This document shows positions 3,111 to 12,103 of a DNA stretch of 64,000 nucleotides, one piece after another; the first letter of the stretch is position 1; each line of letters begins with the position of its first letter. The position numbers and the translations under genes were made by a program. The notes under the pieces are model-generated. The model was given only the letters and a program-made list of their open reading frames with translations, did not search any database and was not told the DNA's origin. The stretch spans positions 1-64,000 of the forward strand of contig LBUS01000005.1 of NCBI GenBank assembly GCA_000992695.1, in the 5' to 3' direction. Source of the stretch: Candidatus Peregrinibacteria bacterium GW2011_GWF2_38_29 (GTDB lineage Bacteria; Patescibacteriota; Gracilibacteria; UBA1369; UBA12463).

Positions 3111-3965
3111 ATGGCTACACCAACAAGGTACATGGAAGGCATTGAAGAAGCCGAGAAAAGAGGCTGTGTTGTTCAGCATGGTGCAATTTGCGAATGGGGA
3201 GAGGATTATGGGCATTTGCATCAACAAGGGCTGTCTCTTTTTAACAGCAGATATCTAATTAAATTGGCTGCAAGAATTTTATCAACAAGGCAAGAGATTA
3301 AAACAATTCTTGAATTTGGACCTGGATCAGGTACAGGGACTTCGCAGATGAGTCATTTGGCTCCACAAGCAAAAATAACAACAGCATTCGGACTTCAACC
3401 GGTAAATCCTTATTTGAGATTTGTAAAAGATTTATTTGGGGAAGGCTGTTTGGCGCAACATACGTCTTTAAGCGGTAGCGTAGAAGATTTGATCAGGAGA
3501 AAGTCTTCAGTATTAGACGGGCGTAAAAGCGAGCCTTATGGCGGATCGTGCAGAATGGACGCTATGCTATTTTTGCAAAGAGAATTTGGTATAGAAATAT
3601 TTGAAGCTCTTGATTTTGATCATCCATTTATAGAAAAACAATATGTGGGGCGTTATTCAGATGAAATTGCGAGAGAATTATATGGGCGTTTCGATTTTGT
3701 ATACGAAAGGCAGGGCCCGTGCCATAGGCATGCGGAATACGACGCTTTTGTGCAAACGGAAAGGGTTTATAACGCATATAAAGCGATGAGTCCAACCGGA
3801 GCAATGCTTATAGACGGCAGAGGAATCGAAGAGATTCTTAGAGAAAAAGGAGCTGCTGACGTGAAAACGTCGCTAACAAATCCGGAAAATGGCTTTGGCA
3901 CGCTCGTTGTAAAAAGAGATAACCCACATTGTGACGAACTAATTGAATTGGCGCGCGCCGCATAA
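3111..3965 (+). CDS. Hypothetical protein with a SAM-methyltransferase-like motif
   Basis: 284 residues, cytoplasmic. ILEFGPGSGTGTSQMS (about residues 66-81) resembles motif I of class I SAM-dependent methyltransferases, and YERQGPCHRHAEYDAF followed by MSPTGAMLIDGRGIEEIL (about 202-246) could be the later motifs. The acidic residue expected at the end of strand 2 is not clear, so methyltransferase activity is a guess. Substrate unknown. It has its own strong promoter and no functional link to its neighbours. Its end lies 19 nt before the next start, which has its own promoter. Confidence 0.6.
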   Translation: MATPTRYMEGIEEAEKRGCVVQHGAICEWGEDYGHLHQQGLSLFNSRYLIKLAARILSTRQEIKTILEFGPGSGTGTSQMSHLAPQAKITTAFGLQPVNPYLRFVKDLFGEGCLAQHTSLSGSVEDLIRRKSSVLDGRKSEPYGGSCRMDAMLFLQREFGIEIFEALDFDHPFIEKQYVGRYSDEIARELYGRFDFVYERQGPCHRHAEYDAFVQTERVYNAYKAMSPTGAMLIDGRGIEEILREKGAADVKTSLTNPENGFGTLVVKRDNPHCDELIELARAA

Positions 3966-3972
3966 GATTTGC

Positions 3973-3978
3973 TATAAT
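3973..3978 (+). promoter_or_regulatory. -10 box of a probable leaderless promoter
   Basis: TATAAT preceded by TGC, then CTCCTC and ATG at 3985. The box is six bases from the start codon, so transcription probably begins at or beside the A of the ATG. Confidence 0.6.
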
Positions 3979-3984
3979 CTCCTC

Positions 3985-5616
3985 ATGCAATGCGCCCAAT
4001 GCAAAGAAAATTTTGACCACAGTACAGCCGAAATCGAAGCTTATAAAATGTTCGATGCGGTTTTGTCAGATGCGTGCCCGGATTGTAGACACCGAAGGCA
4101 TTTGATTTTTCGAAATGAGCGAAATTTGTTTAATACAAAAAGTTTTCTTTCGGGGAAAAATATAATTTCGCTTTATCCAAAAACAACAAAACACAGAATC
4201 ATCGATTCGGAGGAGTGGTGGAGTGATCGATTTGATGCGACAATGTACGGTCATGAATTTGATTTTAACAGACCATTTTTTGATCAAATTAAAGAATTGA
4301 AAAAAGAAGTTCCGCGTTGGTCAAAAATTTGCCTCAATGTGGAAAACAGCGAATTTTCCAATAACAGTGCGAATGTGAAAGACAGTTATTTGGCTTTCTC
4401 TTCATGTGATGGCGAGCAAATGCATTATTGCATGCGCGTTATAAAATCGAGCTTTTGCATTGATTGTATGAACGTAAATGACAGTCAATATTGCTCAAAT
4501 TCTCTTGATATCAAAAAGTGTTATGGTGTTCATTACTCGCAGTCTTCTGAATCCTGCAATGATTCTTATTTTGTTTTTGATTGTAAGAATTGCGCCGATT
4601 GCATCCTTTGCGCGCAACTTCGAAATAAAAAATATTGCATTTTGAATAAAGAACTTTCAAAAGAAGAATATGAAAAGCAGAAGAAAGAGTTTTTGGCCAA
4701 TCTTGGGCAAAATATGAATGTAGCAAAGCAGAAATTTGAAGAAATAAAGCGTTTGGTTTTATACAAAAATCTTCGCATCACAAAGAGCGAAGATTCAGTT
4801 GGTGACTTTATATCAAGTTCAAAAAATGCGATAAATTGTTTTAGCGTTTCGGATTTGCAGGATTGCACAAATTTATACGATTGTTATGCATGTAAAAATT
4901 GCCACGATAATCTTGCGAACGATAAATCGGAATTGTGTCTTGAAGTTGATACGGCTTATGACATGTATAACTGCAAACTTTGCACATATTCGGTTTCAGA
5001 AAGAGATTGTACATATACGGATCAGTGTATGATAAATAAAAATCTTTTCGGCTGTGTTGGGCTTAAGCATCAGCAATATTGCATTTTAAATAAAAAATAT
5101 TCAAAAGAGGATTACGAAGAAATGCTTAAAAAAATAAAGGTTTATATGCAAAAAACAGGCGAATGGGGCAAACCATTTCCAGCTACTTTAACCCCATTTC
5201 CATATAACATAACCGTTGCGCAGGAATATTATCCGCTAACGAAGGATCAAGCACTTGCGCAAGGCTTTGAATGGTATGAAGAAGAGGAGCAAATTGCACC
5301 GGCGGAAAAATATAAAATTCCATACAACATAGAAGAAGCGGATGAATCGATTTGCAAAAAAGTGCTTGTTTGTGAGGAAACCGGCAAACTATATAACATT
5401 ATTCCGCAAGAACTCCGTTTTTATAAACAAATGAAATTGCCGCTTCCGCGTATTTCCCCACATCAAAGATACATGGGGTTGCTCAAAATGTTGCCTCCAA
5501 AACGCCTTCGCGATACGGTTTGCAGCGCTTGCGCCGCGCAAATCAAAACCGTTTATCCGGCCGACAGTTGGCGCAAGATTGTTTGCAACGAATGCTATCT
5601 GAAGAAGGTGTATTGA
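3985..5616 (+). CDS. Large Cys-rich protein of a CPR-associated family
   Basis: 543 residues with about 50 cysteines. It opens with a zinc-ribbon-like CAQC...CPDC and closes with a second one (CSACAAQ...CNEC). Between them are repeated Cys-x2-Cys and Cys-x5-Cys blocks (for example CKNCADCILC and CYACKNC). A module occurs twice: KKYCILNKELSKEEYEKQ (about residue 215) and QQYCILNKKYSKEDYEEM (about 365), which implies internal duplication. From memory, similar proteins occur in many CPR genomes under unhelpful names; the function is unknown. Multiple structural zinc or iron-sulfur sites are the likely use of the cysteines. Start chosen at MQCAQC because the upstream TATAAT rules out the earlier ATG (3943). 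Confidence 0.75.
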   Translation: MQCAQCKENFDHSTAEIEAYKMFDAVLSDACPDCRHRRHLIFRNERNLFNTKSFLSGKNIISLYPKTTKHRIIDSEEWWSDRFDATMYGHEFDFNRPFFDQIKELKKEVPRWSKICLNVENSEFSNNSANVKDSYLAFSSCDGEQMHYCMRVIKSSFCIDCMNVNDSQYCSNSLDIKKCYGVHYSQSSESCNDSYFVFDCKNCADCILCAQLRNKKYCILNKELSKEEYEKQKKEFLANLGQNMNVAKQKFEEIKRLVLYKNLRITKSEDSVGDFISSSKNAINCFSVSDLQDCTNLYDCYACKNCHDNLANDKSELCLEVDTAYDMYNCKLCTYSVSERDCTYTDQCMINKNLFGCVGLKHQQYCILNKKYSKEDYEEMLKKIKVYMQKTGEWGKPFPATLTPFPYNITVAQEYYPLTKDQALAQGFEWYEEEEQIAPAEKYKIPYNIEEADESICKKVLVCEETGKLYNIIPQELRFYKQMKLPLPRISPHQRYMGLLKMLPPKRLRDTVCSACAAQIKTVYPADSWRKIVCNECYLKKVY

Positions 5617-5761: not shown

Positions 5762-6763
5762 ATGGAAGTGAAAATTTTTACAAAAGAGATGTCAGCGCAA
5801 GAGGTGAAAAAGGTTAAGGAGTATTCGATGACAAAAGTCCCGGCGATTGAGAGTTTGCTGCAGCATTTTGCTCCGGATGCGGCGAATCTGCGCATTAACG
5901 CGGAAAAGTTGGGGAGGAGAAGTGCTTATAAAGTCGAATTTGTTTTGCATCTTCCGTCAAAAATTATTATTGGGGAAGAGGCGAGTCATGAAATCACAAA
6001 AGCCGTTGATTTGGCAAAGGATAGGATTGTCCGTCAGCTCAAAAAACATGAAGAGCTTTTGAGGTCAAAACATGGCAAAAAGCACAAGCTGAATATTAAG
6101 GAAATTGATTTTGATAAAATACCGGCCTTTGCTGAGCTTAAGCCAAAAAATAAAGATATTTTCGCGGACATTCTACAGCCGCACTTGGTCAAATTAAACA
6201 AATTTATTAAGAGGGAAATTTTTCACAACGAATCGCTCGATATCATTCCGCAAGACGTAGTTGAAAGTGAGTCGATTTTGAATGATGTGATTCTTGATTT
6301 TTATGCAAATTACAATCCGCAAATGAAAGGCAAGGCTCTTGAACAATGGCTTTATACAGTCGCAATAAGTAAGATCCGCACTGCAATCGATGAATATAAA
6401 GAAGAAGATATGAAAGAAATTCCGATTGAAGAAGAAGCGGTTCCAAGAACGTCCGAAATTGAAGATTATTTTGAGGAGAAAGAAATTGAAAATGTAGTGA
6501 ATGAAGTCCCAATGGAAAGCGATGATGAAACGCCGGAAAATATTTCTTCCAAAAAAGAATTATTCAGATTTTTGATGGCAGAGCTTTCCAAAGTTGACGC
6601 CAAAAAACGCGAAGCATTTATTTTGAATAAGATGGAAGGTTTTGTTGCCGCGCAAATCAGCGAAATGCAACACAGACCCCTCAAATCCGTGACAATGGAT
6701 ATTGAATTTGTGCAGAAAGTGCTTGCGGAGAAGGCGAAAGCGGAGTTTGGAGAGGAAGTGTAG
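5762..6763 (+). CDS. HPF/RaiA-like domain fused to sigma-factor-like segments
   Basis: 333 residues. Residues 1-105 look like a ribosome hibernation factor (HPF/RaiA/S30AE) fold: an opening strand with helix, then RRSAYKVEFVLHLPSKIIIGEEAS and the family-style helix DLAKDRIVRQLKKHEELLRSK. Residues about 140-215 resemble sigma70 region 2 (a helix leading to QDVVESESILNDVIL, then ALEQWLYTVAISKIRTAIDEY). After an acidic linker, residues about 275-320 resemble region 4 (LSKVDAKKREAFILNKMEGF, then a helix-turn-helix-like stretch). It could couple ribosome dormancy to transcription, or the sigma-like part may only bind nucleic acid. The domain calls are by eye. It stands alone upstream of cdaA. Confidence 0.65.
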   Translation: MEVKIFTKEMSAQEVKKVKEYSMTKVPAIESLLQHFAPDAANLRINAEKLGRRSAYKVEFVLHLPSKIIIGEEASHEITKAVDLAKDRIVRQLKKHEELLRSKHGKKHKLNIKEIDFDKIPAFAELKPKNKDIFADILQPHLVKLNKFIKREIFHNESLDIIPQDVVESESILNDVILDFYANYNPQMKGKALEQWLYTVAISKIRTAIDEYKEEDMKEIPIEEEAVPRTSEIEDYFEEKEIENVVNEVPMESDDETPENISSKKELFRFLMAELSKVDAKKREAFILNKMEGFVAAQISEMQHRPLKSVTMDIEFVQKVLAEKAKAEFGEEV

Positions 6764-6815: not shown

Positions 6816-7679
6816 ATGTTTGAAGCCGTAAATAATTTAATAGCGAACTCCATTTTGTTCGTGCAGAAATCCGCACAAGGATTTGTCGAAAACGTGAATT
6901 ATCTCAACTTCACTTGGTTGCAAATCGCTGCCGACATTTTTCTAGTTACGATTTTTATTTATTATTTGGTTTTGATTTTAAAAGGAACACGCGCCCTCAA
7001 CATTGTTTGGGGACTCATGATGCTTGGCATCATTTATCTCATCAGCAAGGTGTTTTCGCTCGTTGCCGTTAGTTGGCTTTTTGAAAAATTCTTAACACTT
7101 GTTATCATCGCAATCCCAATTATTTTTCAGCAAGAGTTGCGTCGTGCACTCGAGAAACTTGGTAAAACAAAGCTATTTATGAGTCACATAATAATCAAAG
7201 CCGACATTTTGATCAGCCAAGTTGTTTCCGCTTCCGCTGATTTGGTTGAAAGAAAACGCGGTGCATTAATCGTTTTTGAAAGAGACACCTCTTTAAAAGA
7301 ATATATTGATACAGGCGTTGCGCTTGATTCGGATGTCTCAAAAGAGCTTATCGTAAGCATTTTTAACGATAGATCTCCACTTCACGATGGCGCAATAATC
7401 ATCAAAGATAATAAGATAAAAGCCGCTTCTTGCATTTTGCCACACTCGTTTAAAGCATATAGCAAAACGCTTGGAACAAGGCACAGAGCCGCACTTGCTC
7501 TTTCCGAATCCACGGACGCAAAAATCATCGCGATTTCAGAAGAGCGCAATTCGATTTCATTTATAGAAGACGGTTCAATTGAGCAGAACGTAACGCCTCA
7601 AAAACTTGAATTAATGCTCGAATTCCTTAAGCCAAAAGAGAAAAAACATTATTTTAAAAGCAAAAAAGTTCAAAAATGA
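6816..7679 (+). CDS. cdaA: Diadenylate cyclase CdaA
   Basis: Membrane-bound synthase that condenses two ATP into c-di-AMP. Three N-terminal membrane helices (about residues 20-100) precede the DAC domain. The catalytic signatures are present: PLHDGAIII (DGA) and GTRHRAALALSE (RHR). The 287-residue length fits CdaA (DacA). The in-frame start at 6789 is rejected because the ATG at 6816 follows a -10 box at the usual 6-nt distance. The stop overlaps the cdaR start by 4 nt (ATGA), the conserved cdaA-cdaR arrangement. C-di-AMP usually governs K+ and osmolyte uptake and wall homeostasis. Confidence 0.92.
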   Translation: MFEAVNNLIANSILFVQKSAQGFVENVNYLNFTWLQIAADIFLVTIFIYYLVLILKGTRALNIVWGLMMLGIIYLISKVFSLVAVSWLFEKFLTLVIIAIPIIFQQELRRALEKLGKTKLFMSHIIIKADILISQVVSASADLVERKRGALIVFERDTSLKEYIDTGVALDSDVSKELIVSIFNDRSPLHDGAIIIKDNKIKAASCILPHSFKAYSKTLGTRHRAALALSESTDAKIIAISEERNSISFIEDGSIEQNVTPQKLELMLEFLKPKEKKHYFKSKKVQK

Positions 7680-8611
7680 TAAGTATTTTTTACAAAAATT
7701 TGCCAACAAAAATATTCTCGCTAGCAATCGCGATTATTGTTTGGATTGTGATTATTGCATCACAACAAACGCCATATCAATTCACGGATGAAATTGAGGT
7801 TAAGGCCTTTAATATGCCGGAAAACATGAGTCTGATTTCTTCGTTGCCAAAAGTAAAAATCAAAATCGTCACAACAAAAGATATTTTACAGACATTAACA
7901 AAAGCTGATTTTGAAGCTTATATCGATACAAAAAACATCAAAGAAGGGATGCACACTCTTGATGTTTTAGTTACGCCAAAAATACAAAACGTAACGGTTG
8001 TGGCCGCAGAGCCCTCCAGAGTTTCTTTTGAAGTCGAAAATATGATGCAAAGGCAAGTCGCGATAAAGGCTATAACAAGTGGAAATTTGAATGCCGGATA
8101 TAAATCAGAAAAACCGGTTTTAGCCCTAGATAAGGCTCAAGTCGAAGGCGCGGAAAGTTTGATAAAAAAAGTCAGTGAACTTCGAGCTGAAATAAAATTT
8201 GATGGCAGTGAAAATATATCATTGGAAAAAGAAATAAAATTAAAAGCGTTTGATCAAAGCGGCGTTGAAATCAAAGAAGTAAAAATAACACCGGAAAACG
8301 TTAAAGTTAATATCACTATAACGCAGGTAACTAAGCAGAAAACAGTCGGCGTTAAGGTGTCCGTGAAAGGTTCTACAAAAACCGGCTGGATTGGAAAAAT
8401 CACAGTTGAGCCTTCGGCTATTGAAGTAAAAGGTGATGCAAAATACATTGATGCCTTGGACTATATTGATACCGAAGACTTTGACATTTCAGAAATGACA
8501 AAAACAACCGAAAAATATTTACTCTTAAATATTTCAAAAAACATTTCTCTAGTGAATGAAAACGCAAATCGTGTTAAAGTAACGGTCGAATTTAAATCTT
8601 ACAACAACTAA
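7676..8611 (+). CDS. cdaR: YbbR-domain regulator of CdaA
   Basis: An N-terminal membrane anchor (about residues 12-30, IFSLAIAIIVWIVIIAS) is followed by an extracytoplasmic region of about 280 residues made of three YbbR-type repeats (start regions near residues 35, 120 and 215, each beginning with a KVKIKIVTT-like or VAIKAITSG-like strand). CdaR proteins bind CdaA and modulate c-di-AMP output. The ATGA overlap with cdaA implies coupled translation. In Firmicutes glmM follows; here ychF follows instead. Confidence 0.88.
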   Translation: MISIFYKNLPTKIFSLAIAIIVWIVIIASQQTPYQFTDEIEVKAFNMPENMSLISSLPKVKIKIVTTKDILQTLTKADFEAYIDTKNIKEGMHTLDVLVTPKIQNVTVVAAEPSRVSFEVENMMQRQVAIKAITSGNLNAGYKSEKPVLALDKAQVEGAESLIKKVSELRAEIKFDGSENISLEKEIKLKAFDQSGVEIKEVKITPENVKVNITITQVTKQKTVGVKVSVKGSTKTGWIGKITVEPSAIEVKGDAKYIDALDYIDTEDFDISEMTKTTEKYLLLNISKNISLVNENANRVKVTVEFKSYNN

Positions 8612-8612
8612 A

Positions 8613-9710
8613 ATGGCTCTGAATATTGGAATCGTCGGACTACCAAACGTCGGTAAATCAACTTTGTTTAACGCAATGATTCGTTCAAGAATGGCTTCTG
8701 TTGCGCCATATCCATTTTGCACAATCGATCCGAATATTGGTGTCGTTGAAGTTCCAGATGAACGTATCAAGCGCATTGTTGAAATTGCAAAACCCGCAAA
8801 AACGATTCCTGCAACAGTCGAATTTAAAGATATCGCAGGCATTATTAAGGGCGCTTCGGAAGGTGAAGGTCTTGGAAATAAATTTCTTTCACATATTCGT
8901 GAAAGCCACGCAATAATTCAGATTGTTAGATTTTTCGGAGATGATGGTGTTGTCCCGCATGTTCACGGTTCAGTCGACCCAAAACGAGATAAAGAAATCA
9001 TCAATACAGAGCTTATTCTTGCGGATATTCAGACTCTTGAAAAGCGCCTTGAAAAAGCGAGCACAGAAGCAAGAACAGGAAAACCGGAGGCGAAAATTTA
9101 TTTGGAACTTTTGCAAAATATTCAAAAAGCTTTATCAGAAGGCAAAACCGTTCGAGATATGAATTTATCGGAAGAAGATTCTGAAAGAATTCGCGACCTT
9201 CATTTCATAACGCAAAAACCGATAATGTATATTGCGAATATTGATGAAAGTGAAATAAAAAACATTACGCCGGAATTTATTAGAGAAAAAATGGATTTGG
9301 CAGCAGATGTTCCAGCTATTCCAATTTGTGCAAAAATCGAAGAAGAGGTTTCGGATTTATCTCCGGAAGAAGGAAAAGCATATTTACAAGAACTGGGCTT
9401 AAAAGATACAGGGTTGAATGAAGTTATTCGTGCGTCCTACGCATTGCTTGGCCTTGCAACGTATTTTACGCAGGGAACTGATGAAGTCCGCGCATGGACG
9501 ATCCACAAAGGCGATACGGCCCCAAAAGCGGCCGCCGTAATTCACACGGATTTTGAAAAGCATTTCATCAGGGCGGAAGTTATTAGCTATGAAGACTTTA
9601 TTTCATGCGGGGGAGAAGTTCAGGCAAAGGAAAAAGGCCTCATGAGGCTCGAAGGTAAAGAATATATCGTCAAAGACGGCGATATCATTTTCTTTAGAGT
9701 TAGCGTTTAA
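8613..9710 (+). CDS. ychF: Redox-regulated P-loop ATPase YchF
   Basis: Obg-related P-loop NTPase that binds ribosomes and prefers ATP. G1 GLPNVGKST (residues 8-16), DIAGIIKGASEGEGLGNKFL as the G3/switch II region, the altered specificity motif NIDE, and a C-terminal TGS domain ending with the typical DGDIIFFRVSV. 365 residues, normal length. It begins one base after the cdaR stop and so is probably in the same transcript. Its last four bases overlap the convergent RSH gene. Confidence 0.95.
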   Translation: MALNIGIVGLPNVGKSTLFNAMIRSRMASVAPYPFCTIDPNIGVVEVPDERIKRIVEIAKPAKTIPATVEFKDIAGIIKGASEGEGLGNKFLSHIRESHAIIQIVRFFGDDGVVPHVHGSVDPKRDKEIINTELILADIQTLEKRLEKASTEARTGKPEAKIYLELLQNIQKALSEGKTVRDMNLSEEDSERIRDLHFITQKPIMYIANIDESEIKNITPEFIREKMDLAADVPAIPICAKIEEEVSDLSPEEGKAYLQELGLKDTGLNEVIRASYALLGLATYFTQGTDEVRAWTIHKGDTAPKAAAVIHTDFEKHFIRAEVISYEDFISCGGEVQAKEKGLMRLEGKEYIVKDGDIIFFRVSV

Positions 9711-12043
9711 TTCTTTGGAAGCTGAACTTTTCGATGCTCGATGTAATTGGCGAGCATATAAAATATAATCAATGCGATCAATATGCCGATAACCATTGGA
9801 TCAAGCGGTATTTTGTAAAAGTAGAATTCGGCATATGTCATTGCGGCAACAAAGGATACAACGAATAAAGTTAGCGCAAAGCCTATAGAACCCTTGCGAG
9901 TTCCCGGGAAATTTTTTTCCATAAGCTTTTTTAAATAAAAAGACAAAGCAAATATAACGAAAAGTCCAACGTAAATTGACACTCCAACGATAGTTTTCGC
10001 ATTGGAAAACCCGCTTTCAACAAATATCCCAACAATAAAAGGGTGCAATGCCCATCCAATGATATTTAATATGGCAAATGTGACAAATAGACCCATCTGT
10101 CCTGCAAATTTTCTTGTTATTTTTACGCATCCCGGAATTTGCTCAAGCCGTTTTATAATTTCAGTAAACATTCGTAAATCTTTCATCTCAAAATCGATAA
10201 TAAGACTTGCTTTTCTACCAAAAGATCTGTCGCCTGCGCCCCATATACTTAATAAATTGACATTATATTGTCGTATAACGTCTGTCACATCCATGACAAA
10301 GCCGGGCCTGTCTTTGCCGGTAATTTCAAGCTTGATAGTTTTTTTTGAAAAAGGGATTGAGTTGTCGATGACATCAGCGTCTCTACCGTGTGAACTTCTT
10401 TCGAGATATATCAATTGTATGACATCAAAAGGCGAGATTGTTCCTTCGCCAACAGCAACGTAAAAATCATAAGCTGAATTGTAGTCGGCGTTTAAGCGTT
10501 CTTTTAGGACTTTTTGAAGCTTTTTAAATTTCATATCTTCGATAAATCCAAGTCCGGCAATGTTGAAAGCGCTTTGTAAAAGCTTTTTACCGATTGACGT
10601 TTTTTCAGCTCTGGTTTTTGATTTAAAAATCTCTTTTATTCTGCCGCGCGCGCTACTGGTTTTAGTATAAGGAAGCCATTCGAGCCTTGGCTCGTGTGCG
10701 GTATGCGTTATAAGAATTTTTATTTTGTCATTCGAATTAAGCATTGTCGTGAGCGGCATAATAATATCATTTATTCGCGCCTCATAAGCGTAGGATATTT
10801 TTTTTGGTTCAGTCGCATAAATAAAATCAATAACACTAGAACCGGCAGGCAGATAAAAAGGTTCTCCATTTTGATTAAAAACCGTGATCCTATCGCTAAA
10901 AATTTCTTCTTTTAAATCACGCATAAAATAATCATCATCAGAATCTTGTTTTTCCAGTTCAAGAATTTGCTCCATCCATTTTAAATATTTTGCAGGCATG
11001 GATTTTGTTGTGACAAGATTAATACCAAGCTCAGAATCATCATGCATTTTTTGTGTACGAATTTGAAATTCAATTCTGGCTTCTTTTGGACCAAGAACTA
11101 TTGTGTGTATGGATTGATAACCGTTTATTTTTGGAACAGCAATGTAGTCTTTTAATTTTCCAGCATCGGGCTTATACATTGAATGCGCAACGCCAAGGGC
11201 TTTATAGCAATCATCAGGGGTGTCTGTGATGATTCTTATTGTGATTAAATCCAGAACATTTTTTGCGCCCGGATCATCAAAAGATTTAATCTTTTTGAAA
11301 ATATGAAAGATTGATTTTGGCCTTAAATAAACCTTTGCATTGATTTTCTTCTTATCAAGAATGGCTGACATTTCAGTTATAGTTTTTTGCGCAATATCGT
11401 CATGTTTTTTATTGTATTTTTTTAGTCGATCAATAAAAGCCCGATATTCTTTTTGATATAAATGCTTAAAGCACAAGTCCTCAAGTTCATATTTTATGCC
11501 TTGTATGCCCATTAAATTCGAGATTGGAATATAGACTTCAAGAGTTTCTTTTGCGATTCTGGTCTGCTTATCCGGCCTCACAAAATGCAGAGTTCGCATG
11601 TTGTGAAGGCGATCTGCGAGTTTAATAAAAATCACGCGCGGATCTTTTGAAGTATGGAGGAGAAGCTTTTTAAGTGACTCAATTTGACGCTTTTCCATGG
11701 CGTTTTTGTAGTAAACCTTCGACAATTTCGTGACACCATTAACAAGGAAAGCAACGTGTTCCCCAAATTCTTTTTGAATATCATTTATTGAATATGAAGT
11801 ATCTTCGGAAACATCGTGAAGCACTGCCGCAATCAAAGTATTTTCATCAACGCGCAAATTCGACAAAATTTTAACAGTCTCAATAAGGTGGGTTATATAA
11901 GGCGTTCCTTCGTAGCGCATTTGGCCTTTATGCGCATTATCTGCGAAATGATACGCTTTTAAAAAGCGATTGGAATCAAAGCCGGGAATTCTCGACTTTA
12001 CCTTTTCGATTATCGCTTTTATATCGTTCAAAATATATGCCAT
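9707..12043 (-). CDS. RelA/SpoT homologue with C-terminal membrane domain
   Basis: Bifunctional-type (p)ppGpp hydrolase/synthetase, about 778 residues. The HD hydrolase (motif HDVSED near residue 76) is followed by the synthetase region (KLKDYIAVPKINGYQSIHT, then EFQIRTQKMH). Next come TGS (DRITVFNQNGEPFYLPAGSS) and a C-terminal ACT domain (KLEITGKDRPGFVMDVTDVI). The usual AExGIAAHWxYK after the RTxxMH motif is replaced by SELGINLVTTKSM. Four hydrophobic helices follow the ACT domain (about residues 685-770), a non-standard tail suggesting a membrane-tethered RSH. Start set at ATG 12043; a TTG nine bases upstream is less likely. Confidence 0.9.
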   Translation of the reverse strand: MAYILNDIKAIIEKVKSRIPGFDSNRFLKAYHFADNAHKGQMRYEGTPYITHLIETVKILSNLRVDENTLIAAVLHDVSEDTSYSINDIQKEFGEHVAFLVNGVTKLSKVYYKNAMEKRQIESLKKLLLHTSKDPRVIFIKLADRLHNMRTLHFVRPDKQTRIAKETLEVYIPISNLMGIQGIKYELEDLCFKHLYQKEYRAFIDRLKKYNKKHDDIAQKTITEMSAILDKKKINAKVYLRPKSIFHIFKKIKSFDDPGAKNVLDLITIRIITDTPDDCYKALGVAHSMYKPDAGKLKDYIAVPKINGYQSIHTIVLGPKEARIEFQIRTQKMHDDSELGINLVTTKSMPAKYLKWMEQILELEKQDSDDDYFMRDLKEEIFSDRITVFNQNGEPFYLPAGSSVIDFIYATEPKKISYAYEARINDIIMPLTTMLNSNDKIKILITHTAHEPRLEWLPYTKTSSARGRIKEIFKSKTRAEKTSIGKKLLQSAFNIAGLGFIEDMKFKKLQKVLKERLNADYNSAYDFYVAVGEGTISPFDVIQLIYLERSSHGRDADVIDNSIPFSKKTIKLEITGKDRPGFVMDVTDVIRQYNVNLLSIWGAGDRSFGRKASLIIDFEMKDLRMFTEIIKRLEQIPGCVKITRKFAGQMGLFVTFAILNIIGWALHPFIVGIFVESGFSNAKTIVGVSIYVGLFVIFALSFYLKKLMEKNFPGTRKGSIGFALTLFVVSFVAAMTYAEFYFYKIPLDPMVIGILIALIIFYMLANYIEHRKVQLPKN

Positions 12044-12103
12044 ATACAACAATCAATCTTCTCATAACACGCATAAACAAGTCAACGAAAATGACGAAAA
12101 TGC

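Follow-up and report, generated by a model that had tools for sequence, protein, structure and literature searches.

A 333-aa protein encoded in the 64,000-nucleotide window that we analyzed, the first stretch of a Candidatus Peregrinibacteria bacterium GW2011_GWF2_38_29 contig, joins an HPF/RaiA fold to ECF-type sigma regions 2 and 4. Its C-terminal half appears, from its residues, to be a pseudo-sigma, and promoter choice by the protein is unlikely. We propose that the protein may be a hibernation-type factor whose C-terminal half, as a sigma mimic, engages a partner of sigma factors and in this way ties stress transcription to the idling of ribosomes, a reading that we consider plausible, if a little short of probable.

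An Intact HPF/Pseudo-Sigma Fusion Gene in Peregrinibacteria

The fusion gene occupies positions 5762 to 6763 (+ strand), starts with ATG and, as the initial annotation stated, forms one uninterrupted frame. The closest named record to its product, at 97% identity, is from Candidatus Peregrinibacteria GW2011_GWC2_39_14. Full-length, intact fusions were found in all three genomes of the genus (g1), namely the present one (G000), G001 (97% identity), and G002 (63%; orthologue L004), and conservation at the genus level rests on these three sequences. Two separate genes, or read-through between them, were ruled out by the single ORF in the three genomes. Comparison of G000 with G001 gave a dN of 0.015 and a dS of 0.48 for the HPF half, and a dN of 0.020 and a dS of 0.73 for the C-terminal half, a dN/dS of ~0.03 in each case. 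Both the HPF half and the sigma half are thus under strong purifying selection. In the rest of the order, HPF genes occur without the fusion: a match was obtained in 52 of 89 genomes, and only three of these matches extend through the sigma half. This restriction to a single genus within the order is what might be expected of a gene-call or assembly artefact, or of a decaying remnant. However, because the fusion is intact as one ORF in three independent genomes it is not an assembly artefact, and the low dN relative to dS of its C-terminal half, together with full-length homologs in Proteobacteria, also stands against such a reading, which the sequence data already refute and to which we give virtually no chance.

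Assignment of residues 1 to 105 (positions 5762 to 6076, + strand) to HPF/RaiA, as first annotated, was upheld by profile, sequence, and structure searches. Residues 17 to 98 match Pfam Ribosomal_S30AE (PF02482) at 26.6 bits, passing the cut-off of 23.7, and L004 scores 34.1 against the same cut-off. The best sequence match to this half in the PDB was Listeria HPF (phmmer, E 5.8e-6). Structure prediction, the check initially suggested for the N terminus, returned an HPF fold: the AlphaFold (AF2) model has the beta-alpha-beta3-alpha topology of HPF with a pLDDT of ~80 to 89, and in Foldseek it matched HPF/YfiA structures (E 6e-6; TM(target) 0.84 to 8uu7_w). The half is basic (pI 9.8, residues 1 to 112). 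While the domain shares its Pfam family and fold with HPF/RaiA (YfiA), the protein differs from that family in its sigma-like C-terminal half, in its score of 31.3 against the NCBIfam equivalog TIGR00741, which misses the cut-off of 40.9, and in S30AE_C (PF16321) not being detected in it.

S30AE_C is instead encoded in a separate gene (L084). Every g1 genome carries another S30AE gene with the length of a long HPF, and the copies in G000 and G002 are canonical long HPFs with S30AE_C, which rules out the fusion as the sole HPF of its genome. The main alternative to our proposal is a ribosome-only factor, in which the pseudo-sigma half would dimerize ribosomes or wrap rRNA in place of S30AE_C, with no link to transcription. 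Long HPF and the archaeal HPF-CBS fusion HibA (PMC13324472) show that a module added to HPF can have its target on the ribosome, and both the missing S30AE_C and the strong loss of DNA-contact residues described below, which fits any non-DNA use, agree with this alternative. HibA resembles the fusion in joining an HPF domain to a second module, but its second module is CBS, not sigma-like, and binds the large ribosomal subunit (PMC13324472). Against a ribosome-only role, a canonical long HPF is already present in the same genome, the C-terminal half is very acidic, unlike an rRNA binder, and the two-domain sigma layout with its linker is kept across distant phyla; we therefore consider it unlikely.

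A Sigma-Like Half Lacking Promoter-Contact Residues

A basic linker (residues 106 to 127, positions 6077 to 6142, + strand), of low confidence in the AF2 model and with its counterpart in the basic RHEDxxKRKARR of proteobacterial relatives, leads into pseudo-sigma region 2 (residues 128 to 217, positions 6143 to 6412, + strand), where sigma matches were obtained and the model places helices at residues 128 to 159, 169 to 182, and 190 to 217. Pseudo-sigma region 4 (residues 263 to 329, positions 6548 to 6748, + strand) follows an intervening linker of residues 218 to 262 (positions 6413 to 6547, + strand), which is disordered in the models and lines up with the relatives' linker, FE(F/Y)xQPDExLxLED. 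The initial annotation had described region-2-like and region-4-like stretches separated by an acidic linker; the same stretches align with ECF factors, and the linker is indeed acidic.

NCBIfam ECF models matched residues 135 to 314 with E values from 1e-6 to 3e-5, all below their cut-offs; TIGR02937 (sigma70-ECF) gave 23.6 bits (E 3e-5) for the fusion protein and 35.1 for L004, against a cut-off of 42.9. Sigma70_r4_2 (PF08281) scored 14.8 in the fusion protein and 26.6 in L004, on either side of the 25.7 cut-off. Of the above-threshold sigma hits initially named as support, one was obtained for region 4 in the orthologue; the fusion protein itself stayed below the cut-offs of these sigma models. 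A profile of ECF factors (21 from related genomes plus E. coli RpoE) gave 24 to 34 bits over both sigma regions. When the model was built without ECF rows in the alignment, sigma chains were among the first Foldseek matches after the HPF structures, with weak E values of 0.07 to 0.2; the first of these was 9m9d_F, and 5uxx_C (RpoE-NepR) was also among them, again weakly. When ECF rows were included, nearly all of the top 30 matches were sigma factors (SigW 5wur, E 3e-4, probability 1.00), SigW-RsiW (5wur), RpoE-NepR (5uxx), and PhyR being among the matches, and the C-terminal half reached a pLDDT of 73 only with these rows in the alignment.

Residues Arg176 and Asn80 of E. coli RpoE, which we take to contact the -35 and -10 DNA, respectively, have equivalents in all 22 ordinary ECF factors (HMM alignment). 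The R176-equivalent Arg was absent from 15 of 15 fusion-family members, the R176 column of the Klebsiella-type rows, a Gln, being taken from the family alignment because the HMM alignment truncates these rows at that point. Among family members aligning at the N80 column, only L004 keeps the Asn. The fusion protein itself has Ser at the Asn80-equivalent position, and the recognition helix of its region 4, SVTMDIEFVQKVL, is acidic and has no Arg at the R176 position. The sigma half as a whole is acidic (net -17, pI 4.7). With the contact residues lost and the half acidic, promoter recognition by the fusion is unlikely and sigma mimicry is the likelier role. Of the two uses first suggested for the C-terminal half, directing promoter choice is therefore disfavored, and holding a partner through the sigma-like helices stands as plausible where that partner is a protein.

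In summary of its relation to ECF (group IV) sigma-70 factors, the fusion shares with them the sigma2/sigma4 homology and fold, but differs in its sub-cut-off score, the lost -10 Asn and -35 Arg contacts, its acidity, and the N-terminal HPF. A functional ECF-type sigma factor that uses HPF as its sensor, which idle ribosomes would hold and whose release would switch on stress genes, is given some credence by the significance of the sigma2 and sigma4 homology, by the annotation of some relatives as sigma factors, and by Sigma70_r4_2 scores over the cut-off in some members. Yet the R176 equivalent is missing throughout the family, the N80 equivalent is lost in all aligning members but one, the recognition helix of the fusion protein is acidic, and the branch leading to the sigma half is very long (see below), leaving this reading only a slim chance.

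Kinship with orf11 of Heat-Resistance Islands

Proteins of Burkholderia and Paraburkholderia match residues 33 to 323 of the fusion with E values down to 8e-9 (tblastn against plasmids). With one of these proteins as the query, 295 plasmid records were retrieved, 273 of them with at least 80% coverage, mostly from Klebsiella, Enterobacter, Acinetobacter, and Escherichia. Aligned with hhalign, the Peregrinibacteria fusions and 13 proteobacterial proteins gave a probability of 99.4% and an E value of 7.5e-22 over 279 columns that span HPF, sigma2, linker, and sigma4. Judged by these alignments, the fusion is a distant relative of orf11 from the heat-resistance islands of Klebsiella, Enterobacter, and E. 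coli. In those islands, and in those of Acinetobacter, orf11, which encodes a hypothetical protein, lies between hdeD-GI and trx-GI. Of 5426 complete E. coli genomes, 144 contain tLST orf11 over at least 80% of its length. Proteins of the orf11 type also occur in Burkholderia, Cupriavidus, Roseomonas, Sphingobium, Agrobacterium, and Paracoccus. In the records examined for context, orf11-type genes sit with genes for Hsp20, ClpK, GroEL/DnaK, FtsH, HdeD, YfdX, and Trx, and the relatives from other bacteria adjoin Hsp20, GroEL/DnaK, FtsH, AAA ATPase, HdeD, or YfdX genes. In Burkholderia and Paraburkholderia (L112, 5299 to 8507; L111, 5379 to 8900), the relative is directly upstream of groES-groEL-dnaK in a variant stress island. 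A strongly conserved FE(F/Y)xQPD(E/D)xLxLED motif marks the sigma2-sigma4 linker of the proteobacterial relatives (plasmid records L113 to L123).

Like the fusion, tLST/LHR orf11 has the order HPF, linker, pseudo-sigma2, acidic linker, and pseudo-sigma4, and has lost the sigma DNA-contact residues. The two differ in that identity is only ~20 to 25%, the C-terminal tail of orf11 is longer, and the HPF half of the fusion groups with Peregrinibacteria short HPFs, unlike orf11 HPFs. Context also differs: orf11 is found with clpK/hsp20/hdeD/trx, whereas the fusion gene lies in cdaA-ybbR-ychF and not in a tLST-type stress island. In the literature that we found, orf11 appears only as a protein whose identity to proteins of known function stays below 30% (PMC8290217). 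Its deletion in E. coli MG1655 lacZ::LHR was not among the deletions for which reduced heat or chlorine resistance was reported (PMC8407380), so any role of orf11 would be subtle, condition-specific, or redundant. In LHR2, orf11 carries an insertion (PMC5383660). Our search of the open-access literature found no report of an HPF-sigma fusion, or of HPF within tLST.

Outside g1, no other full fusion was found in 380 Patescibacteria genomes searched with the fusion profile and a joint profile, and among the matches listed for an S30AE family search of the same number of genomes, frames were 105 to 234 aa, none of fusion length. Relatives were likewise absent from the viral contigs and phages searched. 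Another Patescibacterium (G100) encodes a stand-alone pseudo-sigma (L125, positions 450 to 1256, - strand) with a QPD linker and no HPF domain; its gene adjoins a cytochrome b5-like gene. The fusion and its relatives may represent an undescribed family of hibernation factors, extending from Peregrinibacteria to enterobacterial mobile heat-resistance islands, in which a pseudo-sigma couples idle ribosomes to the transcription machinery and which would explain orf11. We advance this broader proposal as a conjecture, with the balance tilting against it; if true, it would provide a first concrete, testable reading of tLST orf11.

In the sigma tree, all 21 ECFs stand on one side of a split with 99/96 support; on the other are L125, the fusions, and the 13 orf11-type proteins, the last two groups represented by their sigma halves. 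The fusion sigma half lies on a very long stem of the ECF tree (3.08 changes per column). In the HPF-half tree, the HPF of the fusion clusters with the unfused HPFs found in its order, with those of orf11 placed apart (90/91). Because the HPF halves break from the pattern of the sigma halves, two histories suggest themselves: an old fusion whose sigma half was lost on many occasions, or acquisition by the genus of a pseudo-sigma half next to the HPF of its own. The branches are too long for a firm decision between them. A divergent ECF gene in the sister genus (g2) was considered as the source of the fused sigma half and was not supported, as the two do not group in trees.

A Possible Link between Ribosome Idling and Transcription

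The mechanism that we favor builds on a fusion architecture that is conserved and under selection, on the lost DNA-contact residues, on full-length homology to orf11, and on ECF/DUF5667 linkage of the unfused HPF in g2. By analogy with its family, the HPF domain would occupy the decoding/tRNA channel when 30S/70S ribosomes are idle. The C-terminal ECF sigma fold would no longer read promoters and might serve as a protein-binding module whose sigma-like surface is recognized by a customary partner of sigma factors, putatively core RNA polymerase or, as with PhyR, an anti-sigma. Partner binding could then couple ribosome idling to stress transcription. If true, one protein would tie ribosome dormancy directly to transcription control; to our knowledge, coordination of the two normally relies solely on signals such as ppGpp.

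PhyR has a degenerate sigma fold that mimics an ECF factor toward NepR. The fusion shares with PhyR a degenerate sigma fold that probably does not bind promoters, and has weak, below-cut-off Pfam matches to the PhyR sigma-like models PF22233 and PF22029, which are expected because of shared ancestry. It differs in having HPF in place of the receiver domain. A specific form of our favored reading would be a PhyR-type partner switch, in which the pseudo-sigma sequesters an anti-sigma and frees a true ECF factor when ribosomes idle. The degenerate fold, the Foldseek matches to PhyR and to the anti-sigma-bound SigW-RsiW and RpoE-NepR, and ECF/DUF5667 gene pairs in g1 and g2 genomes are consistent with such a switch. 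Nevertheless, Pfam detected no receiver domain in the fusion, no NepR-like gene was found beside it, and adjacency of the DUF5667 pair is limited to g2, in which HPF carries no fusion, making this version distinctly unlikely.

In all four g2 genomes with the locus, the unfused HPF gene is divergent from an intact ECF sigma gene, behind which comes one for a DUF5667 protein, so an association of HPF with sigma exists there without fusion. The g2 HPF gene lies at the corresponding place, adjoining cdaA or ychF. ECF and DUF5667 genes divergent from the HPF gene were seen at L005, L006, and L009 (G005, G004, and G003, respectively). This pair beside HPF is possibly a sigma/anti-sigma pair controlling HPF.

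Gene Neighborhood of the Fusion

The c-di-AMP and ppGpp genes noted nearby in the initial annotation were confirmed. Next downstream of the fusion is cdaA (positions 6819 to 7679, + strand; PF02457, E 1.3e-39, and PF19293), encoding a diadenylate cyclase (c-di-AMP); in each of the three g1 genomes this gene accompanies the fusion, and in G003 it accompanies the unfused HPF. Its end is overlapped by four bases by a ybbR-like gene (7676 to 8611, + strand; PF07949), after which comes a gene for a ychF-like GTPase (8613 to 9710, + strand), identified from its sequence; elsewhere in the order, several genomes show ychF linked to the short HPF gene. Immediately upstream of the fusion gene, positions 3943 to 5616 (+ strand) encode a protein of 557 aa that is rich in cysteine and has numerous CxxC-like motifs; it is kept in L001 and had no significant Pfam or NCBIfam match. 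Convergent with the cdaA-ybbR-ychF genes is a RelA/SpoT-type ppGpp enzyme (9707 to 12052, - strand, 781 aa) with PF13328, PF04607, ACT, and a partial RIS match; the ~120 C-terminal residues that follow ACT resemble several transmembrane helices, which is unusual for this enzyme.
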